Origin: Pedobacter indicus
GTDB taxonomy: Bacteria > Bacteroidota > Bacteroidia > Sphingobacteriales > Sphingobacteriaceae
DNA length: 64,000 nucleotides
Assembly (NCBI RefSeq): GCF_003449035.1
Contig: NZ_QRGB01000001.1
Coordinates: forward strand, 1,736,001-1,800,000
Direction of reading: 5' to 3'
Shown here: positions 45,194 through 61,910 of the stretch, piece after piece
Numbering within the stretch: the first letter of the stretch is position 1
Layout: each line of letters opens with the position of its first letter
The notes under the pieces: generated by a model
The model's database searches: none
What the model saw: only the letters and a program-made list of their open reading frames with translations
What the model was told of the DNA's origin: nothing
Position numbers and translations under genes: made by a program

Positions 45194-46219
45194 CTAAAAA
45201 AAAGGCAAGTCGTAAGTAAATATCTTATTTTCATTGTTTTCTTCACTCGTACTTACTGCATAGATTTTACGATATTCTTCAGATATTGTAAATAGGGATA
45301 AATTCTCATTCAAGCTATAAGTTGCTATTGGCGAACCATTCCAATCCCATACCTGTAATTCGGTGACATTCTCGCCAGACTCTTTTTCGTTTTGATAGAA
45401 GACATAGATATAGTTGTTTACGGATTTCGGATATGCATAATAATGAATCTTTTTTCCTTTATCATTATTTACATTATTTTCATGTGATGAAATATCCACT
45501 TGAATATCTTTTAAGATATTTCCCTGATTATCATATATTCTAAAACGGTCAAAATATCCATAGAACGACGCGAACTGGCTACCATCAGAATTGACAACGC
45601 TGTTCTTCACGTATGTGAACATTTTATCTTCATCTAAAGGTTCTGAATCACCCCAATCAGGGTATGGACTGAATGGTTCACTCATATTATTGCTAATATC
45701 AAGCAGCGTATACTCTGTGTCTTGATTAAAACCACTCCAATATGTATACAGCGAATCAGTTAAAGGAAGCAGACCATTTACTGGGATCTCGTCGATAGCA
45801 AAACGAATACTATTTTCATTGTCGACAAACAGTTCGTTCCTATCGATGACAACCTCTTTTAGCGTATTTTGCATTTGGTAAAACAACTTGAATCCTCTAT
45901 CCGTGGGTACAAAAACTCTCCTGTCGATATTGTTAAAGTCATTTGGCCCGTCACCTTTAATCCCAAGGTTTTTAATATGTTTCACTTCGGGAAGTTTGAA
46001 CATGTTGAAAACAGTATCCTGTCGTGGATTAAACAGCAATAACTTATCACCGGTAATAAAGATATTTGCCGGACTTAATATTACTGGTGGCACTTCGATT
46101 ATATCAGCATCTAAAGTCTCTTGAATCGGGAATTCCCGGACAATAGTATCTAATTCATTTGAATTACTACATGAACCAAAAAAATATATAAAAATAAATA
46201 TGAAGAACAGTTTTTTCAT
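45194..46219 (-). CDS. 6-bladed beta-propeller lipoprotein (cassette 1)
   Basis: A 341-residue lipoprotein with lipobox Cys in 'FFGSCSNSN'. The rest is beta-rich with repeated short strands of the kind 'KLLLFNPRQDTVFNMFKLPE' and 'FRIYDNQGNILKDIQVD', consistent with the 6-bladed beta-propeller (TolB-like, BF3164-type) lipoproteins common in Bacteroidota. These have no established function. It is the downstream partner of the NVEALA peptide gene at 46305-46580, separated by 85 bp holding a stem-loop. Likely outer-membrane-anchored (the position after Cys is Ser, then Asn). Family call is by pattern, since propeller sequences vary greatly. Confidence 0.75.
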   Translation of the reverse strand: MKKLFFIFIFIYFFGSCSNSNELDTIVREFPIQETLDADIIEVPPVILSPANIFITGDKLLLFNPRQDTVFNMFKLPEVKHIKNLGIKGDGPNDFNNIDRRVFVPTDRGFKLFYQMQNTLKEVVIDRNELFVDNENSIRFAIDEIPVNGLLPLTDSLYTYWSGFNQDTEYTLLDISNNMSEPFSPYPDWGDSEPLDEDKMFTYVKNSVVNSDGSQFASFYGYFDRFRIYDNQGNILKDIQVDISSHENNVNNDKGKKIHYYAYPKSVNNYIYVFYQNEKESGENVTELQVWDWNGSPIATYSLNENLSLFTISEEYRKIYAVSTSEENNENKIFTYDLPFF

Positions 46220-46231
46220 AATGATGGATGC

Positions 46232-46269
46232 AATTAAAAAGGAAATATTATATTATTCCCTTTTTAATT
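46232..46269 (-). repeat. Stem-loop between peptide and propeller genes (cassette 1)
   Basis: AATTAAAAAGG (46232-46242) and CCTTTTTAATT (46259-46269) are a perfect 11-bp inverted repeat with a 16-nt AT-rich loop. It sits 35 bp after the peptide stop and 12 bp before the propeller start. The same position is occupied by hairpins in cassettes 2 and 3. No T-run follows, so partial termination or transcript stabilisation are both possible. Confidence 0.6.
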
Positions 46270-46304
46270 CAGTGTGCTTTTTAGAGGTAATATTTTGTAA
46301 AAAA

Positions 46305-46580
46305 TTAGGAACACGTAGAACTTGAACTTGCGCTAGTAGCCCAATATTCTTTACAATCGCTACAGTCAACGACTTTAATTGCTAGTGAGTTATCGTCAGG
46401 TGCTTTTGTAATTGTAGAATAGCAATGTTTATCAGAACCTTCTTCACCATCTGCCAAAGCCACAATATTATCCAATGTTATGTTGGCGTTTTTGCCTAAC
46501 TCTGATTTAAGATTTAGATTGAAGGTCATTATAGCTGCAACTGCTACAGTTCCGGCTAAAGCATAAGTTTTCTTTTTCAT
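46305..46580 (-). CDS. NVEALA-family Cys-containing exported peptide (cassette 1)
   Basis: A 91-residue peptide. Residues 1-4 are MKKK, 5-23 a hydrophobic signal-like segment ending NLN (21-23), and 37-46 read DNIVALADGE, the NVEALA signature (DUF/PF NVEALA family, function unknown). The C-terminal core (47-91) has Cys at 53, 73, 76 and 90, with CYSTIT at 53-58, C-x2-C and a Ser-rich tail. The core probably forms two disulfides after export. Leader length and signature position are identical in all three peptides of this window. Its promoter element lies about 190 bp upstream (46724-46788), giving a long leader that contains a hairpin. Confidence 0.8.
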   Translation of the reverse strand: MKKKTYALAGTVAVAAIMTFNLNLKSELGKNANITLDNIVALADGEEGSDKHCYSTITKAPDDNSLAIKVVDCSDCKEYWATSASSSSTCS

Positions 46581-46654
46581 TCTTTGTTAAGTTTATTTTT
46601 TTATTAATAGTTAAGGGTTTTTTGAATTCTTTCACTCGTCAATCATTCTGTATT

Positions 46655-46700
46655 TTGAAAAAATGTTCTGAACTGAGAAGTGTTCATCTCAGTTCAGAAC
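46655..46700 (-). terminator. Terminator-like hairpin downstream of the export operon / in cassette 1 leader
   Basis: A perfect 13-bp inverted repeat, GTTCTGAACTGAG (46665-46677) and CTCAGTTCAGAAC (46688-46700), 10-nt loop, followed on the minus strand by ATTTTTTC. It can terminate transcripts from the hydrolase/RND2 operon (stop at 46790). However, the predicted cassette 1 start site (near 46717) lies before it, so it may also act inside the peptide mRNA leader. Confidence 0.75.
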
Positions 46701-46723
46701 TATGTTGGTCACTCACACCAATT

Positions 46724-46788
46724 TAAAAGTACTGTTTACTTTATTGGGAGACGAATTTTGAAAACGATCAATTCTTGCTCAATTCTTA
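46724..46788 (-). promoter_or_regulatory. Tandem 11-bp operator and -7 box, cassette 1
   Basis: On the minus strand two copies of TAAGAATTGAG / CAAGAATTGAT lie head to tail with 11-bp period at 46767-46788. TACTTTTA (46724-46731), like the Bacteroidota -7 box TAnnTTTG, starts 36 bp past the repeat. The spacing matches cassettes 2 and 3 and the 55196 gene. An 11-bp direct repeat is the usual site format of PhoB/OmpR-type response regulators. It starts right after the hydrolase stop codon. Confidence 0.65.
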
Positions 46789-46789
46789 C

Positions 46790-49399
46790 TTACCGCCAAT
46801 CATTGTCAAAGTCTCCAGAACTGATCAGCTGGTAGCGATCCCCACGATAGCGAAATATTTTGAAATCAGAATCGCCTTCATTTGAGAAATCCCTGATCGG
46901 CATACTCTTAATCATCGAATTTGAAGCGATCAGAACAATATACCTGTTGGGCTTAAGTGGATTAGGATAAACAAAAGAAATTAAGATGTCGTTCCCGTTT
47001 ATCCGTTCCTCCCTGAAAACAATGTGGTCTTCGTGAATCTGGATGGGCAACTGTTCTACAATCTTTTGTATTGTTTTATTGTGGAACCGTGTGCCTATCA
47101 AAACCAGGTTTGAGTTTTGAATATCTTCATTCGAAAGGTCAATCTCTTTGACCGAGATCATGTCGTTAAAGTAGATGTTCTGCCATAGGACATTAAGTGT
47201 GTCCCTGATTGGTCGATTTCTGTCAGCAAAGACCACTTTAAAACTATTGGCAAATGCGTGATTGATGGGGCCTTCGACCATATTATTTTTTCTGAAAGCG
47301 AACCTGCTATCCTTGTTATTAAGGTTAAAATAGAGTTTCTCATCAGACTTGACAATGCCGTTTGTCAGAACACCGTTCAATAATATCGTTCGTTCGTTCA
47401 TACGTCCCCGTAAGTCAAGTTCAAACCTGTTCACGTTTTTACTAGATATCCAAATCGTGTCCTTATCGAATGAAACCTTCACGATTGCAATACCGTCTCC
47501 AAGTTTCTCCAAGATCCGTAACCCATGGTTTTCCCCGTACTTTAGTTCAGATGTAGAGACGGTGATGCTATCCGGCCTGAGGTTCCGTTTCTTACCTTTC
47601 AAATACTCGAATGCCGACCTGTACCAGTCTGTCGGAGCTACAAAATGAGTGGTGTTTTCATCGATGTTGAGTACGGGATCCCTGGAATAGTTTTTCATCC
47701 GCTGAAAGATCCGCTCGGCAATTTCCACCGATACCATTTCGTCGTTTTTGGAATGTTGCATGAACAAATATGCATTCGATAGGTTTTCTATCCTGTACTT
47801 GTCGGTGTCGAACTTATTGATATCAAGGTCTGGGCCGTAAAAAATGTTGCCAGCCATCAATGAAGGAAAGCGGGTCGCTAGCGTCAAAGCTTTTCGGGAA
47901 GAGGAACTGCTGCCCAGGATGAATACCCTATCCTCATCAATGCTGTATCTCGTCTTCAGGTCAGCCATTATCTCCTGAAAGGCGGTCATCGCTATATCAT
48001 TGAGCCCCGGATGACCACGGATATTAAGCCAGACCAGCCCAAATCCATATTCGTCCGCCAGTCTCGAATCCCATAGATCCTGATCCCTGTTAGACGTATA
48101 CCAGCTTTCCAGATAGGGGACGGGGATATAACTAAAAGGGCACGAGAGGATCAAGGGGATCTTTTCCTTTCCTTGTTTTAAGCGTTCGGGTATATAGCTG
48201 CTGTAATATTGTTTACTCCCGTCGATTTTAGAGGTATATGCTTTTATCAAGCCATCGAAGTGTATGTTGGCGCCACGTTCCTCCCCGTCCTTCTTAAAGA
48301 AACTGCTGAGTTCCTTTGCATAGAGAACCCTGCTCCGGTCCCAATAGGCCCTGACGAAAGTCGACAGTTCTGGATCGTTGTCTTTGGTCTTCAAAAACTG
48401 CAAGCGTTCGTATGATGCCATCAGATCCATCTTATCCTTTTCCTGCAAGCCGCTGTTCATGGCCGTTTTGTACCTTTCCGAGATTTCATGCAAAATGGTG
48501 TCGAAGTCCCCATAATAGAAATCCTGTTCCAACTTCTCCCCGGCAATGTCAAATTCGATCCGGTAGAGCCCATTCCTTTCCACCGAACTTAAATCAACGG
48601 TCGCCATCCCGGTGCTTTTTGTTATCTGACCCAATTTGCCCTGCGCCACCACGTTCGAGTCGTTGCCAAATATCCTGTAACCGACATCGTCATGGATAAA
48701 TGGCCCTAAGTATGCCGTCAGGTTGGTGTCGACGATACTTTTTGTAAGGATCGAAAACCTATAGTCCGTTAGATAGTTTTCCTTCGCATGTTCCATGCTG
48801 CTTACAAAGAAATTGAACTTCCAATGCGAAGCAGATTCCATATCTGAATAGGCCAGTTTCAGGAGCAGGGTATTGCGGCCTTTTTTTAGTTTTGCCGGCA
48901 CATATTCCTCGTGGTATTTATACTGCACGCGTTTCCAGAGTGTCTCGTACACCGGTTCATTATTAAGCCATAATTTGGCGTGCTGCATACCGCTGAATAC
49001 AAAACTGACATCCTCATCTGTTTTATTGTTTATTTCACAAAATAGGTATACTACACCTTCTTCTTTTTGCACGTAATCCAGTATATTCACTCCCTGCGGT
49101 CTTGTCTTTATCAGGCCGCTTTTGAGGGTTGAATTGCGGCTGCCTACTTTCAGTAGATCGTCGAGGTTTATCTCGGCTTCTTTTGTTCCCGTTTCTAGGT
49201 TCAGGAAGTCGAAATCCATGACTCCCACCCTTGAGAATGAATCTTTAGGAAATGAACCCAAAAAGTGCCAATTTTGTACTTGGATCACATCGACTTGATC
49301 ATCGAATTTTATTTCATTTATTGCTGACGGAGCCCTATTGAAGCATGCCGATGTTATTAAAGAGAGAGTTAAGAATAAAAAAGTATAGCGGATTGTCAT
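46790..49399 (-). CDS. Large lipoprotein with alpha/beta-hydrolase (prolyl-oligopeptidase-like) domain
   Basis: An 869-residue lipoprotein, lipobox 'LITSACFN'. The N-terminal 270 residues look like beta-sandwich domains ('MQHAKLWLNNEPVYETLWKR'). The catalytic domain (about 400-615) has nucleophile elbow GSSSSS at 496-501 (probable nucleophile S498, with the usual last Gly replaced), acid D553 ('QHSKNDEMVS') and base H585 ('DENTTHFVAP'). A C-terminal region of 250 residues follows, with no family I recognise. It could be an esterase or peptidase in the periplasm. Its start overlaps the RND2 stop (ATGA), so it belongs to the export operon and may process the exported substrate; that role is inference. 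Confidence 0.72.
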   Translation of the reverse strand: MTIRYTFLFLTLSLITSACFNRAPSAINEIKFDDQVDVIQVQNWHFLGSFPKDSFSRVGVMDFDFLNLETGTKEAEINLDDLLKVGSRNSTLKSGLIKTRPQGVNILDYVQKEEGVVYLFCEINNKTDEDVSFVFSGMQHAKLWLNNEPVYETLWKRVQYKYHEEYVPAKLKKGRNTLLLKLAYSDMESASHWKFNFFVSSMEHAKENYLTDYRFSILTKSIVDTNLTAYLGPFIHDDVGYRIFGNDSNVVAQGKLGQITKSTGMATVDLSSVERNGLYRIEFDIAGEKLEQDFYYGDFDTILHEISERYKTAMNSGLQEKDKMDLMASYERLQFLKTKDNDPELSTFVRAYWDRSRVLYAKELSSFFKKDGEERGANIHFDGLIKAYTSKIDGSKQYYSSYIPERLKQGKEKIPLILSCPFSYIPVPYLESWYTSNRDQDLWDSRLADEYGFGLVWLNIRGHPGLNDIAMTAFQEIMADLKTRYSIDEDRVFILGSSSSSRKALTLATRFPSLMAGNIFYGPDLDINKFDTDKYRIENLSNAYLFMQHSKNDEMVSVEIAERIFQRMKNYSRDPVLNIDENTTHFVAPTDWYRSAFEYLKGKKRNLRPDSITVSTSELKYGENHGLRILEKLGDGIAIVKVSFDKDTIWISSKNVNRFELDLRGRMNERTILLNGVLTNGIVKSDEKLYFNLNNKDSRFAFRKNNMVEGPINHAFANSFKVVFADRNRPIRDTLNVLWQNIYFNDMISVKEIDLSNEDIQNSNLVLIGTRFHNKTIQKIVEQLPIQIHEDHIVFREERINGNDILISFVYPNPLKPNRYIVLIASNSMIKSMPIRDFSNEGDSDFKIFRYRGDRYQLISSGDFDNDWR

Positions 49400-52300
49400 G
49401 ATTTTTTATATTGCGAATAAAGCTGCTTTTTTCTTCCTACACCCATAAAAAGCGGTAAAAACAAAAAGATTGCAATCAGTGAGACCACCAGCCCTCCAAT
49501 CGTTCCTGCAGCCAATGGAAACCAGAACCCTTCTCTAAAATCACCGATTAAGAAAGGGATGAAACCTAATATCGTTGAAACAATGGTTAAGAGTACCGGT
49601 CTGATCTTTGCGTTCCATGCTTTGATATAAGCTTTGTCTCGAGCTATTTTAAAACGGGAGCGAATAGTATTGTACTCGTCCAGAATATAGATATTAGCGT
49701 TAATGGTGATTCCTGAAAGTAGGATAAAAGAAGCAAAGCCACCCTGATCAAAGTTTAATTCAAACAGGTAAAAGGTCAGAAATATCCCAATAAAAGATAT
49801 CGGTACAACGAATAGGATACAGAGAGGCTGCCGGAATGAGTTGAACAGGATGCTTGTCGTAAAATAAATAACAATAAATATCAGCAACAGCAGAACATAC
49901 TGCTTATTACTATCTTTTCCCCATAAGTTCTGCTGGTCAGCATTAGCAATGGTATATCCCATTGGCAATTGCTTTTCATAATCGTCGATAGCTCGTTCAA
50001 GTACTTTTTTCCCCTGCTCAGCTGCGCCAATGTACTCGTACTGCAAACACAAGCGATATTGTTGATCAACTTTAACTACGCTGTTCGGCGTTTGCTCCCT
50101 TTTAATAACAGCGAGATCAGATAGTTTATAATAGCGGTCATTAAAAAATACCGGTGTATTGTTCAAATCCCAAATATTGTAAATTTCCGAATAGGCAGAC
50201 TTTAAATAAACCTCTTGTCGCTTGTCATCATCAAACAAATCTTCTACGTAGGCTCCGCTATTAAAAATTGTGTTTAGTTGAGCATATAAGTTGATGGGTG
50301 CTATGTTTTCGTAGGCCAGCTTTTCGTTGTCGATATCAAAGTTGTATTCTTCGTAATCATCTTTATACCAGCTGAATTCAGAACGTATATTGACATCGTT
50401 AATCCTTCGGTGTTGAATTAATTCCTGTTTAAAAATAGTTGCTAGCTCCATTAGCTCGTCGTAGTTGTAGCCAAACATCTCAACACGATAGGAGCCGGCG
50501 CCCTCACGTACATCATTGCTAAAACCATCACCGAACCCATAAACACCCCAACTTCCACCCCCAAGTGTCAATGATTTGCTGATCACATTGGCTTTTAGAA
50601 CATGCGGGAAAGCCGTACGCTGATGTTCTTTTTTAAACTGCACATTGATGCTAGCCTGACGGGGGCTGCTGATATTGGTTTGAAACAGGCTTATCTCTTC
50701 AAATTGACTCAAATAAGATTCCATACCCTTTACCAAATTATTCATCTGTTCCAGGGTATAATAATTGGGTAGAGAGGCCGTGATATAGAGATTTGTTTCT
50801 TCCCGGTCAGCATAATAAGAGCCCTCATAAACATCTTCCACGAAAAGACGTAGTGTACCACCCAATGCTTTATCCACATAGGGCTTTATTCCCTCAGTGT
50901 AGGTGTCGCTCCCTAACGTAGCATTATACCATCCTGCAAACCGACTGTCACCCTCCATTTCATCGGGCAACATAAAAACGGGTATACCAAAAGCAAGAAT
51001 CAGCAAGGTGATCACGATCCCTTTTCTTCTATAAAAGATTCGGCATAAACCAAGGTAGAAGTGATTAAAATGATAGTTCAGCCGAATTAGCCATGCGCGT
51101 CTTCCACCATGTTTTTTTATTCGTTTCTTTTCCGAAATTTTCAACTTCTCCATCAATGCCGGAACCAGAAATAAAGCCACAATTAGGGAAAGTGATAGGT
51201 TGATGATCAGTACTATCGCAAAATCAATCAGATTGAGTCTGGTTTTTTCGTCCAGGAAGAAAATTACCGAAAGCGCTATAATGGTCGTCAGTGTCGCCGT
51301 CAGAATAGCAAAGAAGGCCAGAATATTTTTCCGTTTGATGATCTGATCCGCCATGACGATGGTATTGTCAATGATCAAAGTAATCGATATGGTAATCCCC
51401 GCCAGCGAATACAGTTGGATTTCCACCTGAAAAAGATAATAGAAAATGACTGCTGCAAATATATTGACCACCACAGATATAATCACCATGAGTGTATATT
51501 TTAAACTTCGGTAAGCAATCAACACAAAAAGTAATAAAATCAGTAGCGTCAATCCGGTTCGGAAATATATTTTCGCCAACTCCTCTTTGATATAGTCGGT
51601 ACTATCGTAATTCAGGTGAATCTGGTAACCCGGCGAAAAACTCATAGAAAGAGCTTCAATTTCATCTTTTATTTCTTCTGCAAGAGTCAGCTGATTGGCA
51701 TTGTCCTCTGCAACGATAGAAAGGTATATCGAGTTTAGACCATTAACCCGAAAATAACGTTGTGGTTCCGCTTCTACATGAACTATTTCGGCAAGTTGAT
51801 CCAAGTTAATGATTTTTCCGTCTTCTGCTTTTATCTGAATACTACCTAGATCATAAGCTACGGGAAGGGCCAAAACCCTCATCCACTGATCCGTTGTTTC
51901 GTCCACACTTACCCGTCCTAAACCTAAAAACTCTTGTTGCAATTGCTCCTCGATCGCTTGCTCGATCGATTCATGACTGACTTTATGTGCCTCTAATTTC
52001 CGGTAATCATACAATATGTGATATTCTGTGCCCGTAGCTCCATATACATCAATGCGGTGTATCCCTTCAATATGCGCTAATTTAGGGCGAATATTATTCT
52101 CAACATATTCTTGTATATCGGTAGGCGTCAGTGGCGCGTTAACTGTATAATTCAAGAACGATTGGTTTCTGTTATCTGCCTGGGAAACAGTAATACTGGG
52201 ATAAGAGACATTTGAAGGTAGCGAGCTCCATGCTTGTCGGATGATTGTTGACACTTCAAAGCGGGCGTTCTCTATGTTGGTATGCTTATCAAACTCAAGC

Positions 52301-52563
52301 GTAATTTTACCGCTTCCATTATCTGATGAAGAAGTGATTGACCGTACCCCTTTAATCCTGTTCAGCATCGCCTCCAGCTTCGACGTAGTTTCAATTTCAA
52401 CAATACGTGGTGAGCTTCCTGGCATCGCAAATTGAACACTTATCTGAGGTAGCGTTTTAGATGGTGAAAGTTTTACCGAAAGCTCTGGCAAAAGAAATAA
52501 ACCTACAATGGTCAAGCAGACTGCGATCAGGATAATCGAGAAAGAAGAAGCATAGGTTTTCAT
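49396..52563 (-). CDS. RND family efflux permease 2
   Basis: A 1055-residue inner-membrane RND protein, about the usual length. TM1 starts at residue 8, two large periplasmic loops follow, with TM4 'ISITLIIDNTIVMADQIIKR' holding the proton-relay Asp (second Asp of the usual DD replaced by Asn) and the second-half equivalents 'GITINANIYILDEYNTIRSR'. It is the second RND permease of the system and is clearly distinct from the one at 57063-60161, with a degenerate N-terminal consensus. The two may form a heterotrimer, as MdtB/MdtC do. 17 bp follow tolC; overlaps the hydrolase gene by 4 nt. Confidence 0.88.
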   Translation of the reverse strand: MKTYASSFSIILIAVCLTIVGLFLLPELSVKLSPSKTLPQISVQFAMPGSSPRIVEIETTSKLEAMLNRIKGVRSITSSSDNGSGKITLEFDKHTNIENARFEVSTIIRQAWSSLPSNVSYPSITVSQADNRNQSFLNYTVNAPLTPTDIQEYVENNIRPKLAHIEGIHRIDVYGATGTEYHILYDYRKLEAHKVSHESIEQAIEEQLQQEFLGLGRVSVDETTDQWMRVLALPVAYDLGSIQIKAEDGKIINLDQLAEIVHVEAEPQRYFRVNGLNSIYLSIVAEDNANQLTLAEEIKDEIEALSMSFSPGYQIHLNYDSTDYIKEELAKIYFRTGLTLLILLLFVLIAYRSLKYTLMVIISVVVNIFAAVIFYYLFQVEIQLYSLAGITISITLIIDNTIVMADQIIKRKNILAFFAILTATLTTIIALSVIFFLDEKTRLNLIDFAIVLIINLSLSLIVALFLVPALMEKLKISEKKRIKKHGGRRAWLIRLNYHFNHFYLGLCRIFYRRKGIVITLLILAFGIPVFMLPDEMEGDSRFAGWYNATLGSDTYTEGIKPYVDKALGGTLRLFVEDVYEGSYYADREETNLYITASLPNYYTLEQMNNLVKGMESYLSQFEEISLFQTNISSPRQASINVQFKKEHQRTAFPHVLKANVISKSLTLGGGSWGVYGFGDGFSNDVREGAGSYRVEMFGYNYDELMELATIFKQELIQHRRINDVNIRSEFSWYKDDYEEYNFDIDNEKLAYENIAPINLYAQLNTIFNSGAYVEDLFDDDKRQEVYLKSAYSEIYNIWDLNNTPVFFNDRYYKLSDLAVIKREQTPNSVVKVDQQYRLCLQYEYIGAAEQGKKVLERAIDDYEKQLPMGYTIANADQQNLWGKDSNKQYVLLLLIFIVIYFTTSILFNSFRQPLCILFVVPISFIGIFLTFYLFELNFDQGGFASFILLSGITINANIYILDEYNTIRSRFKIARDKAYIKAWNAKIRPVLLTIVSTILGFIPFLIGDFREGFWFPLAAGTIGGLVVSLIAIFLFLPLFMGVGRKKQLYSQYKKS

Positions 52564-52580
52564 GGGCCTTACTCTCTTTT

Positions 52581-54053
52581 TTAATGCATTACATCAAACT
52601 GATACGTCAGTGGTTCCTGCTTTTCAAAATCGTACAGCGTCAACTTTCGTAGCTTATAGTAATTTTGCCAGTAGTACCTCAATGTCGAAATATAATTGCT
52701 TTGCGCTTCTTTTTGCCTGTTTTGGGCCAAAGTCAAACTATTTATATCTGCTTTCCCTATGATGAAGCGCGCTTTTGTAGCTTCATATGCCATATTAGCC
52801 AGATCTGAAGCTTCTTGTGCTGAGGCTATCATATCCAGTTGTATTTCAAAATCGTTGAGCGTAATCCGTACCTCCTGATCCAGGCTCAGCTCCTCCTGTT
52901 GGAAGGTAATCTGAGCCACACCCAAATTATTCCTGGCCATATTGGCTTTTCCTTTTCTAACCCCCCAATCCACAAGCGGTACGGTCAAGCTAATAGAAAC
53001 CAGATCTTGCCGAAGTGGCTGATAGTAAGCATCCGCAAAGTTGTTGGCTATTTGATTGAAGCCCACACTTGCGGACAGGCTCGCATCGAATAAAGTACTC
53101 TTTTTAGTCTGGTCAACTTCCCTTTCCGCTTCCAATACCTGTTGTTGATTGGCAAGATAATTTGGGTTGTTGTTCTTAGCATACTCCAGCGCCTTCTCCA
53201 GAGAGATATCTAGTTTCCGCGGCACCTCTGGTAATTCCAAAACAACATCTGTTTCTTTATCCAGGTTCAAATACGATACGAAGCTATACTTTGCTTTTTT
53301 AAGTTCTACCTCTGCATTTTTTAATGTGTTTTGTGCATTGATCGCATCAAGACGGAGTGTTAGTAAGTCTGCCTGAGAAATCGAAGCAATTTGTTGTCTC
53401 TGCTTACCAATGTTGTACAAGGTATCTGTAGATAGTACATTATCTTTCGCCAGGTCATATTCAGCTTGTGCTAAAGCCAAATTGAAAAAGTATTCAATAA
53501 CCGTTTCCGAAATCTCTTCCCGGTCGAAGAGGTACTGTTTCTTGGCCTCCTCATATTTTAGCGGTTCTATCTTCTTCTCCCATTTAAAACTATTAAAACC
53601 AAATAGTGCTTGCGAATATCCCACCCGAATGGGGACAGATGTAAACTGCGTATAGGTACTAGCACCAAAGTTTCGCATATAGCCTAACTCGGAGTCAACG
53701 AACACTGTACCTCCCGTTACGTCAATATTTTGAGCCAGTGAAAGGTTACCATAAGAGAACAAGGATTGTTGCCGGCGGTAGACATCAATATTATTCTCCG
53801 AATCATACCTCCTTGTAAAGTCTCGGGTATACTGAATAGGTGTCATGGTCAAGCTCAGCGTAGGTAGGCGGCCTGCTTTATAGGCATGGTATTCCCAGTA
53901 GCCCGCTTGGTAAAGGTTTTTGGCTCGGAAAGACTGTAAAGAGCTGTCAGCTGCTAATCCGATACTTTCAGAAAGTGAAAGTATTTCAGTTTTCTGAGCT
54001 ATTGCAGAATTACAGAATAATCCGAATATCAATATATATACTAGCTTTTTCAA
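52581..54053 (-). CDS. TolC family outer-membrane factor
   Basis: A 490-residue outer-membrane channel protein with signal peptide ending 'CNSAIAQ'. Two long helical regions typical of TolC: 'FFNLALAQAEYDLAKDNVLS' to 'DLLTLRLDAINAQNTLKNAE', and 'RITLNDFEIQLDMIASAQEA' to 'DINSLTLAQNRQKEAQSNYI', each with the heptad pattern of coiled coils; 'VPLVDWGVRKGKANMARNN' marks the second strand-helix junction. It would form the exit duct for the RND permeases here. The propeller gene upstream ends 3 bp before its start, so they are translationally linked. Confidence 0.9.
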   Translation of the reverse strand: MKKLVYILIFGLFCNSAIAQKTEILSLSESIGLAADSSLQSFRAKNLYQAGYWEYHAYKAGRLPTLSLTMTPIQYTRDFTRRYDSENNIDVYRRQQSLFSYGNLSLAQNIDVTGGTVFVDSELGYMRNFGASTYTQFTSVPIRVGYSQALFGFNSFKWEKKIEPLKYEEAKKQYLFDREEISETVIEYFFNLALAQAEYDLAKDNVLSTDTLYNIGKQRQQIASISQADLLTLRLDAINAQNTLKNAEVELKKAKYSFVSYLNLDKETDVVLELPEVPRKLDISLEKALEYAKNNNPNYLANQQQVLEAEREVDQTKKSTLFDASLSASVGFNQIANNFADAYYQPLRQDLVSISLTVPLVDWGVRKGKANMARNNLGVAQITFQQEELSLDQEVRITLNDFEIQLDMIASAQEASDLANMAYEATKARFIIGKADINSLTLAQNRQKEAQSNYISTLRYYWQNYYKLRKLTLYDFEKQEPLTYQFDVMH

Positions 54054-54056
54054 TGT

Positions 54057-55196
54057 CTATATTTTGAATTTGTATAAAAAGAGGATCGGACTATTGTCAG
54101 TGCTTTCACGATCGAGCAAACATTCTAGTTCCAGATCAAGATCATAACCTGCATTTTTTTTATTTCGCAAATCAGATGGGAGTAGAGTAGCGACGATAAA
54201 TTCATTAATTCTTCCGACCGGTTTACTCATACCTCCAATCTTCATCTTATCTTCGAATATCTTTGTTGTGAAACCAAGAGTTTCACCACTCCGTTTGTTA
54301 TATAGTCCAAGAAAGTGTTGATTGGAGACGGTGTAATAAGTATTTAAAATGTTTCCAGTTTCTAAAATGTCGTAATGAGAAATATATTCAGAATTACGTA
54401 ATGTTTTCAGAGCTCCTTCTTTTTTATCGGATAGTTTATCGAGGTATTCTTTCGGTGGGAGCTCAAAATTTCCGAACCGCAGGTTATACACAGGTTCAAA
54501 CTTGTTATCGTTAAAAGAATAAACGATTGGGTTAAGTTGTGCATAAGCATGAATGTTCCCTTGGCTTTTATAGATCGTCTTCTTGAAGTTTTGAGGTAGA
54601 CTGGATATTTTTTTTATATAAGTGTTTGTTACAGCCATTTTCCGGTTAGATAGGAGAAATTCCCATTCTTTATGGTTAGGCTCATCGTCAACATTCTTTA
54701 TCAAATACTGCTTATCGTCTAAATATTCAAAGCTGGTAGATCGTATTGGTAAGTTTATTTCCGTTATGAAATTATAACTGTATAGACTATAATTGACTAC
54801 TTTTTTTTGGACGAAGTCAACAATGGATATTAATCCAGCTTCTTCATCGATACTGAAAGAATTTGCCATAACGAATTGCCCTTTTTCTTTCCCTCGACTA
54901 CCGATTTGGCTAATAAAATTACCAGATAAGTCAAATGCTGAGAGATATGCATCAGGTCCTTCCGTCAAAATAAATATTTTATTAAGAGCATAGTCTACTT
55001 GGATTATGGACTCTTCAATTAGTTTTTCGTCAGCTTTTAACTTTATATAATTTGTTGCTAATAGATCATAGGGATCAGACCCTTGTTCTTTAAAATCAAG
55101 AGTTAAGACATTTAAACGAGTGTTTTGATTATCGACGTTACATGATCCTAAGACAAGGAAAAAGCAAAAAAATATAAACAGGCAATAATGGTACAT
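54057..55196 (-). CDS. 6-bladed beta-propeller lipoprotein without peptide partner
   Basis: A 379-residue lipoprotein, lipobox 'LVLGSCNVDN', then beta-rich propeller-type repeats ('KIFILTEGPDAYLSAFDLSG', 'GQFVMANSFSIDEEAGLISI'). Same family as the three propellers in the peptide cassettes, but no NVEALA gene precedes it. Instead a tandem repeat/-7 box is 45-109 bp upstream of the start, giving a short leader of about 38 nt. Its stop is 3 bp from tolC, so it is the first gene of a propeller-tolC-RND2-hydrolase operon. Its role may be in the export machine itself, for instance as a sensor or docking lipoprotein (inference). Confidence 0.75.
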   Translation of the reverse strand: MYHYCLFIFFCFFLVLGSCNVDNQNTRLNVLTLDFKEQGSDPYDLLATNYIKLKADEKLIEESIIQVDYALNKIFILTEGPDAYLSAFDLSGNFISQIGSRGKEKGQFVMANSFSIDEEAGLISIVDFVQKKVVNYSLYSYNFITEINLPIRSTSFEYLDDKQYLIKNVDDEPNHKEWEFLLSNRKMAVTNTYIKKISSLPQNFKKTIYKSQGNIHAYAQLNPIVYSFNDNKFEPVYNLRFGNFELPPKEYLDKLSDKKEGALKTLRNSEYISHYDILETGNILNTYYTVSNQHFLGLYNKRSGETLGFTTKIFEDKMKIGGMSKPVGRINEFIVATLLPSDLRNKKNAGYDLDLELECLLDRESTDNSPILFLYKFKI

Positions 55197-55240
55197 TTGA
55201 GTTAATTATATATCGGGCACTGAAGTAGTTGACTTTGCTT

Positions 55241-55420: not shown

Positions 55421-56509
55421 TCATCTCAATTCTTGTAATATTTGTCTGATGTCGTATTTATAGAGTTCATCCGAATGAACATCAAAAGTATACATTTCAC
55501 CTCTATTGAGATCGAAATCGAAAGACGTAATATGATGTTCAAGGTTAATCTCTATTAGTGGTTTTCCGTCATAATCAAAGAACAGAATTCGGGGTTTTTT
55601 TTCTCGGTTTGTCTGATAGATCGATTCCTTTTCATTAATATGCAGAGTTCCAAAATAGTTATCGAACAATCTTAAGTCAGCAAACGTATAAAGTCTGTCA
55701 CCTAGACTTTTTTGTTGGATTTTATTTATGTCGTTTAATTTTGATTCAACCGAGACAGTTTTTTTGAAAATACCATCCAAGGAGTAAATGTTAAGATGAT
55801 TTAGACCAATGGGCATTTCAACTATCTTTCCATTTTTATTGTGAGCTTTTGTAATGGTCGATAGTATATTAATATCTTCATTCATTTCGATTTTAGCACT
55901 ATTCAATACATTTAGCACTTCAGACGTTTTCTTTTCGTTTCTGTGATATAGATACCTAAGTTGCTGAGTTAGATCTGGGCTCGCTTCCTTGAATAAATAT
56001 TGTGACGAATCAATTACAACTGAATTAAATAAAAAAGGTGGAATAGAGTCCGTTACAATCGAAATACTTAAAGCTTTATCATTAATTGATTTGTCAATAT
56101 TCATTTTTAATAATCTACCCCTTTGAGAGTCATAAATATATGCATAGAGCGAGTCGTATGTGTGAAGAGTGCCTTTAGTAGCTATACTCGGAGGTTGTAA
56201 GAACTGAAAAGGGCCTTCGCCTATTGTCAAGAAATTGCCAAGTATCGAATAATCATTTAGTGAAACAAATGACCACAGGCCATCATCGTCGATTGTAGAA
56301 AAAATTAATAGTGAGTCATGTATAGCGAAATTACGAATACCAATTACATCGATGTCAACGAAGGTTCTTTCTTTTAAAGTAACGCTTTTTGGAAATTTTT
56401 TAACGAAATCAACCTGTTTAAACGCCATATTATTAGTGATTGACTCTTTACAACCAACTGTTAATATGGCAAAGACCAAGATCATCAGATGAATGTTTTT
56501 TTTTCTCAT
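55421..56509 (-). CDS. 6-bladed beta-propeller lipoprotein (cassette 2)
   Basis: A 362-residue lipoprotein starting MRKKNIHLMILVFAILTVGC, lipobox 'LTVGC'. A Met 11 codons upstream lies inside the intergenic hairpin and gives a poor signal peptide, so I reject it. Beta-rich propeller repeats: 'IRNFAIHDSLLIFSTIDDDG', 'LHTYDSLYAYIYDSQRGRLL', 'FDFDLNRGEMYTFDVHSDEL'. It follows the NVEALA peptide gene on the same strand by 59 bp. Its last codons contain one CAAGAATTGAG half-site. It directly abuts the RND1 remnant, marking the end of the inserted unit. Confidence 0.75.
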   Translation of the reverse strand: MRKKNIHLMILVFAILTVGCKESITNNMAFKQVDFVKKFPKSVTLKERTFVDIDVIGIRNFAIHDSLLIFSTIDDDGLWSFVSLNDYSILGNFLTIGEGPFQFLQPPSIATKGTLHTYDSLYAYIYDSQRGRLLKMNIDKSINDKALSISIVTDSIPPFLFNSVVIDSSQYLFKEASPDLTQQLRYLYHRNEKKTSEVLNVLNSAKIEMNEDINILSTITKAHNKNGKIVEMPIGLNHLNIYSLDGIFKKTVSVESKLNDINKIQQKSLGDRLYTFADLRLFDNYFGTLHINEKESIYQTNREKKPRILFFDYDGKPLIEINLEHHITSFDFDLNRGEMYTFDVHSDELYKYDIRQILQELR

Positions 56510-56531
56510 TGAATATTGACTAAGAGTTAAA

Positions 56532-56555
56532 ACACCCTCCACAACTGGAGGGTGT
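56532..56555 (-). terminator. Stem-loop between peptide and propeller genes (cassette 2)
   Basis: A perfect 10-bp inverted repeat, ACACCCTCCA (56532-56541) and TGGAGGGTGT (56546-56555), tetraloop CAAC, followed on the minus strand by TTTTAAC. It lies 13 bp after the peptide stop. It would lower propeller transcription relative to peptide, or protect the peptide mRNA 3' end. Confidence 0.7.
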
Positions 56556-56568: not shown

Positions 56569-56832
56569 TTAACATTTATCGGAGGAAGAGTTCCATGCGT
56601 AAGTTCCGTCCACAAATTCGCAAGTTTGACAATATCGTACTTGACTTCCTTCTTTAGTCGTAATCGTATTATAACAAGTCTCTTTGTCATCTTCTTCACC
56701 AGTCGCCAAAGCTTCTATATTGTTCATAGTTAACATTGAGATGTTATTATCATCTTTTTTAATATTTAAATTAATTGCTGCAAATAATGCAACGACGATT
56801 GCAGCTGAAGCTGTTAAGATTTTCTTTTTCAT
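56569..56832 (-). CDS. NVEALA-family Cys-containing exported peptide (cassette 2)
   Basis: An 87-residue peptide: MKKK, hydrophobic segment to about 22 with NLN at 21-23, signature MNNIEALATGE at 36-46 and core 47-87 with Cys at 53, 68, 71 and 87. The core pattern CYNTIT, C-x2-C, Ser-rich, terminal Cys matches the cassette 1 peptide (CYSTIT, C-x2-C, SSSS, Cys), so these two are one subtype. Upstream lies a 220-bp region with the operator at 57051-57072. Export presumably uses the Sec-like leader; whether cleavage follows the GE motif is not known. Function unknown. Confidence 0.8.
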   Translation of the reverse strand: MKKKILTASAAIVVALFAAINLNIKKDDNNISMLTMNNIEALATGEEDDKETCYNTITTKEGSQVRYCQTCEFVDGTYAWNSSSDKC

Positions 56833-57007: not shown

Positions 57008-57072
57008 TAAAATTACAGCTCATAAAACATCATCCCAAGAGAATCATCCTCTCAATTCTTTCTCAATTCTTT
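57008..57072 (-). promoter_or_regulatory. Tandem 11-bp operator and -7 box, cassette 2
   Basis: Two perfect copies of AAAGAATTGAG (minus strand) at 57051-57072, TTG 13-15 nt further, and TAATTTTA at 57008-57015, which starts 36 bp past the repeat. The repeat overlaps the last codons and stop of RND1 (AAG AAT TGA encodes K-N-stop), so the operator is embedded in coding sequence. Predicted transcript start near 57001, leaving a leader of about 170 nt before the peptide. Confidence 0.65.
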
Positions 57073-57164
57073 TCCTGTTTTCTATAAATCGCCCAATAGG
57101 CTAGGGGTACCACAAATACACTGATAATGGTTCCTATGACCATGCCACCAATCGTAGCGATTGC
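57051..57164 (-). repeat. Direct repeat copy 1 (intact RND1 3' end plus operator)
   Basis: Partner of 55284-55397. Here the segment is the real end of the RND1 gene. See the remnant entry for the synonymous differences between the copies. Confidence 0.9.
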
Positions 57165-60161
57165 GAGCGGTTTCTCAAGTTCAGACCCCATATCACTACT
57201 GAAAAGTAAGGGTGCCATACAAACAATTGATGTTAAACTAGTCATGAGTATGGCATTGAGCCTTCGTTTTCCTGCCTCATGAATAGATTCTATGAGGGGG
57301 ACACCCGATCGGCGAAGTTGATTCATCATGTCAACTTTCAGAATACTATCGTTGATGATAATGCCACAAGTCACAATAATTCCGATTGCTGACATTAAGT
57401 TTAAAGAATGTCCCAAAATCAACAGTAAAGCTAGCGCAGCTGCTATCGCAATCGGTATTTCTAAAAGTACAATCAGTGGCTGGACAAAACTTTCAAACTG
57501 TGCCGCTAAGATGAAATACATCAGCATGATGGATATGGCCAAGATGATCATCATTTCGGTCAGCATCTCGTTGTTTGTGAAGTAGGAACCTGAAAAACTG
57601 ATATCCCAATCTGAGAAGGAAGCCTGATTCGCCTCAATTTTATCGATAAGCTGTTCAGCATGATTAGTTTCAAAAAAATGATAAGGTATATATTCACCAG
57701 TCCTGCCCGCAATAATTGATTTTAAATCTTCTGAGGTAGTCGTGCTGACAAAACTGTTCAGGGGCAAGGATTCCGTTCTACCATTTTCATCAGCCTCAGT
57801 TTGTACAAGTGAGCTTTCCAATATGTCATGTAGATCGGTCTCTTGGTTACTGGCTACCACAATAGGAAGATATTGCTGATAGGAGCGGAGTGTCGTTATT
57901 TCACTTTCGCTCAAACTGGTTTCCAATGTTTGCAAAAGTGTGTTGAAAGACACATTATACAACAGTAATTTAGCGCGATCGATATGAATATTAATCTGAT
58001 TTTCGAAGGATTCGATAGAGGGGACTTGAGCCGTTATATGCGAAAGATCGTTACCCATTTTTTCAATTTCACCCGCTGTAATTGACCGGTGGATGTTCTT
58101 TTTGTATAACTCCATTGTCAAATCTGGCTCATTGGTTGCGAAAATACTCTCAAAGATCGTATTGGAAGGCGCAAAGCTTATCGCAGCATCTGGATGGTTT
58201 CCCGAAAAATAATCCTGAACCTTCTTTGTAATAACAGGGATGTCTTCATCACTAGGCACCTTCAAATAAATTTCAGATTCAGTAGATGTCTTTTCCCGAT
58301 CTTTATTCAGCAGAAACTGTTGTTCACCTACGAGTGCTGCGCTTTCTATAACACCGGAATCAAGGTTTTGAAGGAAGTGTCTGATTCTGTTTTCGTTCGC
58401 TTCCAGATTAATATTTTCATTCCATTCGACCGTAACTACCAGTTCATTTTGACTGATATCAGGCATCTTTTCTTTAGGAATAAGTTGCAGTAGCAGAAAG
58501 CAGAAAGGAAGTAATGCCACCATAACCGTCGCCGTGAGTAATTTATGTCTGAAGATCCAGTCTGTTCCTTGATGGTAAATTCTATGATGAAGGGGCTCTT
58601 TTTCATTATTGGGTTCAGTTCTACTGTCTTTACTTCCAAAGCGTTTAGCGAAGTTTATAGTGCCCTTTGGCTTTATGGAGTAAACCGTTTTGTACAAAAC
58701 CGGTACAAACATAATCCCCGTCAGATAGGAGACCATCAGTCCCACAGCAACCGAAAATGCCTGATCAAAAAAAATCGCTCCTGCAATACCACTTAGAAAA
58801 ATCAGGGGCATGAATACCGATATGGTGGTCAATGCAGAACTCAGCATTGGCGCGATAACCTCGTTCGTTCCCATTACAACGGCATCGTCAAGTGTCAAGC
58901 CCTTTTTTTGATATTGGCCGATGTTGTCCGTAACAATAATCGAATTATCAATCATCATTCCTAGAGCCAGAATCAACCCCGTAAGCGAAACCACATTCAA
59001 CGAAATATTGAACAGATAGAAAAAGAGAAATGCAATAATAAGTGAAACAAACACACTGATTCCGATAATAAGCGGCGCACGGATATCGCTTAGAAAAAAT
59101 ATGGATACCAGACACACGAAAATAAATGCGAGAATAAGGTTTTGTTGCAGATTTGAAATGGTATAATCCAGTAACTCGGTTTGGTTTTGAGAAATATCAA
59201 AAGCAATCTGAGGGTAATTCAGCCGAAGTTGGTCGACGACATCGCTCAAACCTTCCTGCATGGTAGCCATATTCTCATCCGCTTGCTTGATGATGTCCAG
59301 AACTATCGCACGCTTCCCATTGTAAAAAGAGATACCCTTTTCCTGAATCGGCACCTCCTTAATCTGAGCTATATCCTTAAACTGATAGATCTTCTCATTT
59401 TTTTTGATGTAAATATTTGCAACATCAGAGACTGTCCGCAACAGAGATGAGAAGTTGATGTTATATTCATAATGCCCGTCTTTAATCTTCATGCTTCCCG
59501 GCTCAATGTTGTTATTGAGCAGGCTATTTTCCAGGTCTGCATACGTGATTCCTGATATTGCCAGGGTTTGCTTATCAGGTATAATGCTTACCTGCTTTTT
59601 TACCAGACCCGTCATGTCAACCATGGATATTTCCGGTAACTGTTCGATTCTTCTTCTGATGACTGATTCAGAAAGTTCACTCAATTCCAGAAAAGAGGCC
59701 ATGTTATGCTCACCATAGGGTAAATCCTCTTTCAGCGTCAGGTTCAGTTTGAATACCGGAATATCTGTAGCGCTGGCTTTTACCACTCTTGGCCGGTCAA
59801 TCGAACGTGGAATATAATTCATCGCCACATCAATCTTTTCATTGACTTCAATAAATGCTAAGTCAATATCAGCCCCGTATTTAAAATTAAGCTTAATAAC
59901 TGAGTTCCCGTCTCGCGTCTCGGTTCTCAAGTCTTGTAGCTTGCCTACCTGCAGCAGCTGGCGTCTTATTGGGGATACAACCGAATTTTCAAGCTCACGC
60001 GCAGAGATGTTGTTTCCAGAAACCTGCACCGTAATTTCTGGGATTGGTATATTAGGCAATAATGAAACCGGAACATTCATATAGGTAATCATGCCTATAA
60101 TGAAAAAAGCCGTGACCGCCATAAATACAGCAATAGGTCTGTTTATCAGGTGTCTAACCAT
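57063..60161 (-). CDS. RND family efflux permease 1
   Basis: A 1032-residue inner-membrane proton-driven RND transporter (HAE1-type). TM1 from residue 13, 'VPVSLLPNIPIPEITVQVSG' in the porter domain, TM4 'GLILALGMMIDNSIIVTDNI' with the relay Asp (second Asp is Asn), a cytosolic loop, and second-half 'AIGIIVTCGIIINDSILKVD'. The C-terminus ends RKQEKN. It follows the adaptor gene by 3 bp. Downstream the path to tolC and RND2 is interrupted by cassette 2 and an orphan propeller. Substrate unknown; the neighbours suggest export of NVEALA peptides or of a metabolite they control. Confidence 0.92.
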   Translation of the reverse strand: MVRHLINRPIAVFMAVTAFFIIGMITYMNVPVSLLPNIPIPEITVQVSGNNISARELENSVVSPIRRQLLQVGKLQDLRTETRDGNSVIKLNFKYGADIDLAFIEVNEKIDVAMNYIPRSIDRPRVVKASATDIPVFKLNLTLKEDLPYGEHNMASFLELSELSESVIRRRIEQLPEISMVDMTGLVKKQVSIIPDKQTLAISGITYADLENSLLNNNIEPGSMKIKDGHYEYNINFSSLLRTVSDVANIYIKKNEKIYQFKDIAQIKEVPIQEKGISFYNGKRAIVLDIIKQADENMATMQEGLSDVVDQLRLNYPQIAFDISQNQTELLDYTISNLQQNLILAFIFVCLVSIFFLSDIRAPLIIGISVFVSLIIAFLFFYLFNISLNVVSLTGLILALGMMIDNSIIVTDNIGQYQKKGLTLDDAVVMGTNEVIAPMLSSALTTISVFMPLIFLSGIAGAIFFDQAFSVAVGLMVSYLTGIMFVPVLYKTVYSIKPKGTINFAKRFGSKDSRTEPNNEKEPLHHRIYHQGTDWIFRHKLLTATVMVALLPFCFLLLQLIPKEKMPDISQNELVVTVEWNENINLEANENRIRHFLQNLDSGVIESAALVGEQQFLLNKDREKTSTESEIYLKVPSDEDIPVITKKVQDYFSGNHPDAAISFAPSNTIFESIFATNEPDLTMELYKKNIHRSITAGEIEKMGNDLSHITAQVPSIESFENQINIHIDRAKLLLYNVSFNTLLQTLETSLSESEITTLRSYQQYLPIVVASNQETDLHDILESSLVQTEADENGRTESLPLNSFVSTTTSEDLKSIIAGRTGEYIPYHFFETNHAEQLIDKIEANQASFSDWDISFSGSYFTNNEMLTEMMIILAISIMLMYFILAAQFESFVQPLIVLLEIPIAIAAALALLLILGHSLNLMSAIGIIVTCGIIINDSILKVDMMNQLRRSGVPLIESIHEAGKRRLNAILMTSLTSIVCMAPLLFSSDMGSELEKPLAIATIGGMVIGTIISVFVVPLAYWAIYRKQEKN

Positions 60162-60164
60162 TTT

Positions 60165-61259
60165 TTATTCCGTTACTTTTACCACTGTCTCATGCGCCAG
60201 GTTTACGTTACCGTCATAAATTACCTGATCGCCTTCGTTCAAGCCTTCAGCGATCATGTATTCAGAAGCGTTCTCACCGCCGACCGTCACATAATTCCAC
60301 TGTGCTTTACCATTTTCGTAGGTAAAAACTACTTCTTTATTATTTCGCAACACCAATGCTTCCTTGGGTATTGTCAGCTGTTTGGCTAGCAGTTTCTGAA
60401 TTTGCACCCTCACGTTCATTCCATCATACAGCTTCATGCCTCCAGTTTGCGAGATACCAGCTTGAATTTTCACCATGCCGTTTTTGTCGACCAGGGGGTT
60501 TATTTCCGTTATCCTTCCTTCAGCTACTTTGCCATTATAAGAGACAGGCATTACGCGTACTTTATTATTACTTTGAATAAGCTGTAATTCACTTTCCAGT
60601 ACGCTGAAATCGACGTTAAAACTGCCCGTTGCCAGAACCGTACAAAACGGTTCATCTGAAGCGGGTATATTATGTTCCTGTGTAAAGAGGTTTGCGATGA
60701 TACCTGAAAAAGGCGCATAAAGTACGGTGTTCTTTAGGTTGTGGTCAGCAAGCCGAAATTGAATAATAGACTTATCATATCCGCTACGAACCCTTGCCAA
60801 CTCCATAATTGCTTTGGGAACGTTGACGGAGTCTTCCAGCGTATAGCCCTGACCGATCAAAACATCCTGTAATTCCAGTCGCGCTTGTTTTAAAGCATCT
60901 GAAGCCTGATCCAGTTCATTTTGATAGTTGAACCTGTCGAGACTTGCTATTTTCTGTCCGACAGCTACCCGCTGACCATTTTTGACATATATGTGCTCAA
61001 TCACATCTGGCTGTTCAAACCTCAAGTCAGCTTTCTTTGCTGCGGACACAATACCATTCGAAACAATATCCCTATTGAAATCTTTGATTTCAACTGTTTT
61101 TACTTTAACAAGATTATCGGCATCTGGTAGGACGATGTTCTCCGTATTCTCGTTTTCATCCTTGTTTTTTGAATTTGAACAGGAAAAGAAAACCGTTGAA
61201 AAAACAACAGTAACTAAAAGGCATTTCGTTATAATATTTTCGGTCATAAGAATTGGCAA
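60165..61259 (-). CDS. RND periplasmic adaptor lipoprotein (HlyD/AcrA family)
   Basis: A 364-residue membrane-fusion protein that bridges the RND permeases and TolC. Lipobox 'VFFSCSNS' anchors it to a membrane. The biotinyl-lipoyl half motif 'VIEHIYVKNGQRVAVGQKIA' is followed by a short helical hairpin (about 115-165) and 'LKNTVLYAPFSGIIANLF', then beta-barrel and membrane-proximal domains ('LKYDGMNVRVQI'-type 'MKLYDGMNVRVQIQ'). A start at MTENIITK four codons later is equally possible. It starts the adaptor-RND1 unit and is divergent from cassette 3; one repeat site (61326-61347) lies 67 bp upstream. Confidence 0.9.
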   Translation of the reverse strand: MPILMTENIITKCLLVTVVFSTVFFSCSNSKNKDENENTENIVLPDADNLVKVKTVEIKDFNRDIVSNGIVSAAKKADLRFEQPDVIEHIYVKNGQRVAVGQKIASLDRFNYQNELDQASDALKQARLELQDVLIGQGYTLEDSVNVPKAIMELARVRSGYDKSIIQFRLADHNLKNTVLYAPFSGIIANLFTQEHNIPASDEPFCTVLATGSFNVDFSVLESELQLIQSNNKVRVMPVSYNGKVAEGRITEINPLVDKNGMVKIQAGISQTGGMKLYDGMNVRVQIQKLLAKQLTIPKEALVLRNNKEVVFTYENGKAQWNYVTVGGENASEYMIAEGLNEGDQVIYDGNVNLAHETVVKVTE

Positions 61260-61658: not shown

Positions 61659-61910
61659 ATGAAAAAGAAAATTTTGGGAGCTGTAGCTGCTACAGCATTT
61701 GCCGCCGTAATGGCATTAAACTTAAATGTTGGCATTGGTGCCAATGAAACATCTGCCTTGACTATGAATAATATAGAGGCTTTGGCCAATGGTGAAGGTG
61801 CCGATTGCCCGAACGGATGCAAAGATGTTGGATGGGGAACTCAAGAAATATTAAAATGTGATTGTACTTATACAAGCTATTTTTCGAGTTGTGATTCTTG
61901 GGGTTGTTGA
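61659..61910 (+). CDS. NVEALA-family Cys-rich exported peptide (cassette 3)
   Basis: An 83-residue peptide with the same leader plan as the other two: MKKKIL, hydrophobic segment, NLN at 21-23, signature MNNIEALANGE at 36-46. The core (47-83) differs: six Cys at 50, 54, 67, 69, 78 and 83, Gly/Trp-rich ('DVGWGTQEILKCDCTYTSYF'), three possible disulfides. Thus the leader is conserved and the core variable, as in secreted effector or signalling peptides. It lies on the opposite strand from cassettes 1 and 2. Function unknown. Confidence 0.8.
   Translation: MKKKILGAVAATAFAAVMALNLNVGIGANETSALTMNNIEALANGEGADCPNGCKDVGWGTQEILKCDCTYTSYFSSCDSWGC

Follow-up and report, generated by a model that had tools for sequence, protein, structure and literature searches.

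The 64,000-nucleotide stretch of the Pedobacter indicus genome considered here, called the window (contig NZ_QRGB01000001.1, positions 1,736,001 to 1,800,000), carries on its minus strand a gene, HYD (46790..49399), for an 869-residue lipoprotein-type protein, in which a jelly-roll-like N-terminus is followed by a predicted alpha/beta-hydrolase core and a C-terminal module. The gene starts with ATG and overlaps the stop codon of the pump gene RND2 by 4 nt, the two genes sharing the letters ATGA. Cys19 (49343..49345, minus strand) closes the motif LITSAC and is a lipobox-type cysteine with a threonine at position -3, identified by sequence and not by a predictor; a cysteine is aligned to it in all eight orthologues described below. 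About 90 nt past the stop codon lies an intrinsic terminator (46665..46700, minus strand) with a 14-pair stem followed by ATTTTTT, which has the longest stem among 18 terminator-like sites between 44.8 and 62.2 kb and a folding energy of -23.5 kcal/mol (z -4.4). Judged by these sequence features, HYD closes a transcription unit, beyond which a NVEALA-type peptide gene and then a propeller gene follow, also on the minus strand. A sequence-only reading had described the gene as a hydrolase that ends an export operon, and the 869-residue frame, the elbow GSSSSS (G496-S497-S498-S499-S500-S501), D553, H585 and the 4-nt overlap all lie where it placed them. The pattern TAnnTTTG, found 56 times in the window against 67.2 expected and thus below chance, was left unused, and sigma-70-type sites are near chance in the window (59 found, 49.9 expected).

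Long alignments to HYD are found in seven other genomes, six of which (G092, G364, G296, G375, G336 and G310) come from a set of 301 genomes and the seventh (G387) from an overlapping draw of 400; with the window genome (G000), they make up the eight orthologues. The other matches listed there, which include esterases of about 660 residues, are limited to one or two domains. In the genome G001, of the same genus, neither the hydrolase nor NVEALA gives a match, and RND2 gives none at E 1e-100. A scan of genome contigs with the window protein alone and two scans of viral contigs for more family members gave no confirmed match.

The core of HYD spans residues 370-620 (47540..48292, minus strand). 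Its AlphaFold2 model, built for 251 residues from three alignment rows, has a pLDDT of 71.2, a pTM of 0.75 and eight strands, and the closest solved fold is 3wyd, the C-terminal esterase domain of LC-Est1 (LC-Est1C), which stands first in both Foldseek and VIA-align (Z 20.4, root-mean-square deviation 2.5, 186 residues). The profile of the orthologue family matches 3wyd, 8daj and 3doh by sequence too, and in the profile alignment to 3wyd (E 3e-17) the nucleophile, the acid and the histidine region fall on its Ser, Asp and His. The loops that follow strands beta5, beta7 and beta8 of the model carry S498, D553 and H585, respectively; in model numbering, strand 118-127 precedes S498 and helix 131-141 follows it, D553 comes after strand 174-181 and H585 after strand 203-211. 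The triad that the earlier reading had proposed is supported by the model's topology, which places the three residues at the triad positions of a hydrolase fold. Model and profiles together indicate that the core has an alpha/beta-hydrolase fold of the PHB-depolymerase/feruloyl-esterase-like kind. The resemblance to 3wyd, which was compared over the cores only, comes at 17% identity, and the elbow of 3wyd is GHSMGG, in contrast to GSSSSS in the window and GxC in the other orthologues. A full-length AlphaFold2 model, also from three rows, has a pLDDT of 46.8 and backs no claim.

The nucleophile position, Ser498, is encoded by AGT at 47906..47908, the acid Asp553 at 47741..47743 and His585 at 47645..47647, all on the minus strand. 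The GxSxG elbow of the Esterase_PHB type is found neither in the window, which has GSSSSS, nor in the seven other orthologues, which have Cys. The sequence-only reading was right that the final Gly of this elbow is Ser, but the greater oddity is the nucleophile position itself, which is Cys in 7/7 of the other orthologues. For a fifth elbow residue other than Gly, the available part of one source describes the GHSRA of the characterised PsEst3 (PMC9980389). For the Cys, the consulted part of another source describes P91, a dienelactone-hydrolase-like alpha/beta-hydrolase with a Cys-His-Asp triad (PMC9853848). Seven of the eight orthologues resemble P91-type hydrolases in having Cys for Ser at the elbow; unlike these, the window has Ser, the His is missing from several orthologues, and matches to the dienelactone hydrolase family of Pfam stay below threshold.

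Conservation of these residues bears on whether HYD still works as an enzyme. The acid is Asp in seven orthologues and Glu in the eighth, and its column and that of the nucleophile belong to the near-invariant ones of the core, at a mean pairwise identity of 20-27% by segment. The His is less constant: the window, G310 and G387 have it in the H585 column, G364 and G296 2-3 residues earlier, and G336 11 residues earlier. The earlier reading had proposed homologues lacking the triad residues as evidence against it, and the family is partly of this kind: the His column is lost in 5/8, while a Cys or Ser nucleophile and a D or E acid are kept in 8/8. The retained nucleophile and acid speak for chemistry, and the lost His and oxyanion motif speak against it.

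Several observations weigh against a working enzyme. The H585 column is without His in those five of eight orthologues, and in two of them, G092 and G375, the stretch that begins 16 residues ahead of it and ends 11 residues behind it contains no His. The HG oxyanion motif, which three Ser esterases used for comparison possess, is absent from the aligned stretch in 8/8. The G364 copy contains one internal stop and the G310 copy ends at 615 residues, without a C-terminal module. The window protein reaches the cut-off of no Pfam family: it has no match to Esterase_PHB (PF10503), 16.3 bits against a cut-off of 22.6 for Peptidase_S9 (PF00326) and 14.5 bits against 21 for dienelactone hydrolase (PF01738). 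In favour of the hydrolase reading, four of the six other orthologues scanned exceed the cut-off for one or both of the first two families (Esterase_PHB in G296, G375 and G336; Peptidase_S9 in G092, G296 and G336); G310 and G387 do not. HYD may alternatively be a pseudoenzyme, a lipoprotein that has retained the fold to bind a peptide, a propeller or a glycan or to serve it as a scaffold, and whose Ser, Asp and His in the window are leftovers or chance. The missing His and HG motif, the truncated and interrupted copies and a short N-terminal-only frame in G364, itself perhaps a broken copy, agree with this view. Retention of Cys/Ser and of D/E in all eight orthologues at below 30% mean identity, together with the His in the H585 column of the window, G310 and G387, argues against it. 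The choice between enzyme and scaffold is close, the scaffold being a serious contender that we hold somewhat less probable than the enzyme.

The N-terminal domain (residues 28-210; 48770..49318, minus strand) recurs in proteins of about 1250 residues and in a 165-residue open reading frame (ORF) of G364. In three orthologues it has sub-threshold Pfam matches of the PA14 or galactose-binding-like type, and it is best explained as a jelly-roll-like domain of a sugar-binding type. The G364 frame (L061 8239-8733) consists of this domain only and stands beside a NVEALA-propeller pair; the match continues past its stop, so that the frame may be a broken copy.

The C-terminal module (residues 613-869; 46790..47563, minus strand) is shared with serine esterases. 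Its 257 residues match the ends of proteins of about 660 and about 850 residues that have the elbow of a Ser esterase, and in L016 its second half is found behind a DUF4932 domain as well (E 1.7e-12). The C-terminal 250 residues had been described as belonging to no recognised family, which holds in that no Pfam model covers them, but clear relatives exist, and the idea of an orphan domain was rejected on matches with E values to 3.9e-51 in proteins of about 850 residues outside the training rows. The profile used for this part excludes G310, which lacks it.

The Sphingobacteriaceae Ser esterases of about 850 residues (such as e_L087, e_L088 and c_G031) resemble HYD in having the core followed by the same C-terminal module. 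They differ from it in having GHSMGG, Asp and a nearby His in 9/9 compared, and they fall outside the HYD clade: the eight orthologues form one clade (support 97/94) against 13 Ser esterases, every one of which carries GxSMGG and Asp at the aligned positions and has a His near the H585 column. Two further sequences, c_G126 and c_G036, were aligned and excluded from both trees. Within the clade, the window protein groups with G310 (96/91), on a long branch whose placement is unsure. The Ser of the window may or may not be a reversion from Cys: the tree needs two changes for a reversion, and two independent Ser-to-Cys changes cost the same, so that parsimony favours neither. HYD is best explained as a relative of these widespread esterases, recruited in Sphingobacteriaceae as an accessory of gene clusters with Wzy_C.

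A Wzy_C gene, in a frame of 601-640 residues, is present within 15 kb of the hydrolase in 8/8 orthologue genomes, at gaps from 1,975 to 14,408 bases and on the same strand in seven (G375 being opposite). The joint chance of this linkage is about 10^-14, with the 15-kb limit set after seeing the data and the genomes treated as independent. In the window, the Wzy_C protein is an O-antigen-ligase-like protein of 620 residues (63006..64000, minus strand, extending beyond the window) with TPR matches below the cut-off; among six Wzy_C proteins scanned, TPR matches exceed the cut-off in two (G092 and G296), lie below it in three and are absent from G387. The linkage, like the separation of the orthologue clade from the Ser esterases, argues against the view that HYD simply adjoins the cluster and is an ordinary carbohydrate esterase of the envelope or for nutrient use. 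That role would fit the LC-Est1C, feruloyl and acetylxylan esterases among the closest folds, as well as the GH30 gene adjoining the G375 copy, and is nevertheless considered unlikely.

The remaining genes of the cluster suggest peptide export. Upstream of HYD on the minus strand lie RND2 (ACR_tran, 49396..52563), an outer membrane efflux protein (OEP, 52581..54053), a 6-bladed propeller lipoprotein-type protein (DUF5128, 54057..55196), RND1 (ACR_tran, 57063..60161) and a membrane fusion protein (HlyD_D23, 60165..61259), all assigned by Pfam. Past the right end of the window (L140), the order is Wzy_C, signal peptidase I (PF10502), a CxxC-bearing lipoprotein-type ORF with no Pfam match, a propeller and a NVEALA peptide, after which a histidine kinase and an OmpR-type regulator follow divergently on the other strand.

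Three peptide-propeller pairs are found in the window. The peptide next to HYD (46305..46580, minus strand) has a predicted mature part of 48 residues with 4 Cys and scores 23.3 bits against the PF14055 cut-off of 27; its propeller (45194..46219, minus strand) is assigned by Pfam (PF15869) and by a propeller profile. The second peptide (56569..56832, minus strand; predicted mature part of 44 residues, 4 Cys) is over the PF14055 cut-off, and its propeller (55421..56542, minus strand), at 23.8 bits against the PF15869 cut-off of 29.2, is itself in the propeller profile. The third (61659..61910, plus strand; predicted mature part of 40 residues, 6 Cys) is likewise over the cut-off, with a propeller at 61964..62995 (plus strand; PF15869 and propeller profile). 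Between these last two genes, a 13-pair hairpin is located at 61914-61943 (plus strand), which possibly sets the ratio of peptide to propeller. The 3' end of RND1 is repeated beyond a NVEALA-propeller pair (55296-55424 and 57063-57190), which suggests that the pair came into the operon by insertion or duplication. Altogether the locus (45194-62995 of the window and L140 1007-7868) contains four NVEALA peptide-propeller pairs, two RND pumps and one kinase-regulator pair; three of its four peptides exceed the PF14055 cut-off, and the three over-cut-off matches of the genome all lie there. PF15869 propellers are rare: four of the eight orthologue genomes have any, and the eight matches in these four all fall within about 17 kb of HYD.

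Across five genomes (G000, G364, G056, G086 and G089), 14 NVEALA-type peptides were picked by pattern. Their leaders are 42-44 residues long, except for one that starts earlier and has 51, and their predicted mature parts comprise 28-62 residues and contain 2, 4 or 6 Cys, always an even number. The leaders end in ALA by selection, because the pattern demands this motif, and 12 of the 14 peptides had been seen beforehand. A propeller gene follows next on the same strand in 14/14; eight of these propellers were rows of the profile that recognises them, and the other six score E 6.6e-15 to 1.4e-104. Two further peptides, on contig C3 of G056 and in G086 (L146 8451-8669), have 2 Cys each and are followed by a propeller at E 1.2e-109 and by one recognised by eye only (L146 8791), respectively. 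The L146 peptide has a 44-residue leader and was missed by the pattern, its first codon seemingly not being taken as a start. Signal peptidase I follows an AxA rule, from which cleavage after ALA is proposed.

One peptide differs from the rest in its constancy. Beside the divergent kinase-regulator pair, a peptide of 28 residues and 2 Cys is conserved in sequence in 5/5 genomes (L140 5334-5546, L062 10072-10284, L146 4178-4456, L147 9934-10149 and L149 9414-9629), and the other peptides vary. The kinase and regulator are assigned by Pfam in L140 and L146, the regulator by Pfam in L062, and both by eye in L147 and L149. From its sequence and position, this peptide is a pheromone candidate.

In draws of 151 Sphingobacteriaceae genomes, taken as the same set since their listed handles agree, the four genomes with NVEALA peptides and the four with RND2 at 54-100% identity coincide exactly, and three more genomes have an RND2-like match at 36-39%. 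Among the eight genomes with HYD, G000 and G364 alone have NVEALA peptides over the cut-off, so that the link of HYD to classical NVEALA loci is based on two loci and that to Wzy_C on eight. G086 and G089 have like gene kinds in like order, with membrane fusion protein, RND1, outer membrane factor and RND2 at 48.6-60.5% identity and RND2 as the last gene of the operon; G056 has the same kinds split over two contigs, one of which stops about 100 nt past RND2. HYD is absent from all three, apart from one C-terminal-only match in a frame of about 850 residues in G089. The signal peptidase, Wzy_C and some histidine kinases of G056, G086, G089 and G364 were named by eye, not by Pfam. Three of the five classical NVEALA genomes thus lack HYD, which means that the cluster does not need it and adds to the points against an enzyme serving the cluster. 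The earlier placing of HYD at the operon end stands for this genome, where the terminator follows, but does not extend to the related operons of G086 and G089. Its further claim, that synthesis of HYD is tied to the pump by the overlap, finds no support beyond this genome, in which alone the overlap is seen, no search having been made for an RND gene near every orthologue; conserved coupling was rejected on the basis of the same two operons.

The surroundings of the other orthologues vary around Wzy_C. In G387, the hydrolase, a small Cys peptide, a propeller, a protein whose AhpC-TSA match is sub-threshold, signal peptidase I and Wzy_C form a single run, and in G375, whose copy is the one next to a GH30 gene, a small Cys peptide and a propeller lie on the opposite strand at a distance of about 7.5 kb. 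In G092, G296, G310 and G336, Wzy_C occurs with differing sets of DUF1573, redoxin, LytTR or propeller-type genes. DUF4221 of G336 is propeller-like, and in G296 and G310 no propeller could be recognised. Transglutaminase-like ORFs occur in other NVEALA loci (L147 4654-6693 and L062 4405-6318), one over and one just under the Pfam cut-off, with Cys and His readable by eye; they are another possible acyl-enzyme among the accessories.

The tentatively preferred explanation, held at somewhat less than even odds, is that HYD is a working membrane-anchored hydrolase and an accessory of the peptide-export/Wzy_C cluster, which forms an acyl-enzyme on a peptide or on a glycan/lipid acceptor. The sequence-only reading had likewise suggested that it may process the exported product or its acceptor. 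In such a scheme, the signal peptidase of the cluster would cut the peptides after the ALA motif, their cysteines would pair into disulfides outside the cytoplasm, and the tripartite RND pump would export them. HYD, held at the membrane, would then use S498 (Cys in the orthologues) with D553 and H585 for acyl-enzyme formation, with the peptide or a glycan/lipid acceptor produced with the help of Wzy_C as substrate, and would afterwards release or transfer the acyl part. A fuller version is rather improbable as a whole: here HYD is an acyl-transfer tailoring enzyme, Cys-type in the family and Ser-type in the window, acting at the envelope on disulfide-bonded NVEALA peptides of an RND-exported, signal-peptidase-matured pheromone- or bacteriocin-like system of Bacteroidota, in which each variable peptide has its own propeller lipoprotein and the 28-residue peptide is the signal. 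Very unlikely, finally, is thiol or disulfide chemistry of the elbow Cys/Ser on the Cys-bearing peptides in place of ester chemistry; the elbow Cys in 7/8 orthologues and the even Cys count in all peptides read fit it, but the window has Ser, and the CxxC-bearing and thioredoxin-like proteins of the same loci are better suited.

Known systems offer partial parallels. Prolyl-oligopeptidase-type macrocyclases such as OphP are a precedent for a fold of this kind tailoring a peptide, although OphP is a fungal enzyme with a propeller domain of its own. Its structure (7zb2) belongs to the same fold class as HYD and ranks 45 in the Foldseek list. In Bacteroides thetaiotaomicron, BT0662-BT0669 include an O-antigen ligase, a hypothetical protein, a propeller, a signal peptidase I and an RND adaptor, according to the available part of a study with an iron-response table (PMC10434189). 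These are the same gene kinds as in the HYD cluster at nearby locus numbers; unlike it, no hydrolase is among the genes that this part names. This transcriptome table is the only report found for the gene combination, and no paper with the word NVEALA was found, within a limited library and limited search terms, which is no proof of absence.

Judged from its genes, the cluster looks like a peptide pheromone or bacteriocin-type system. Class II bacteriocin and competence-type loci such as pln and blp share with it an inducer-like peptide by a kinase-regulator pair, variable peptides each with a partner gene, and export genes nearby. The cluster, known from genes alone, differs from them in having an RND pump and an S26 peptidase, not a peptidase-ABC exporter.

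Taken alone, HYD is a modest variant: its fold is that of known esterases, with Ser and Cys exchanged at the nucleophile position, a changed oxyanion region and a His that is disappearing from the family. The decay of triads could be studied on its orthologues as a natural series. It belongs to an uncharacterised cluster that merits more attention than the gene itself. Small and rare, this cluster joins RND export and a signal peptidase with peptides of a common leader and differing Cys-bearing ends, with propellers and with a two-component pair. If it does serve peptide signalling or antagonism, it would represent a peptide-export route in Gram-negative Bacteroidota.

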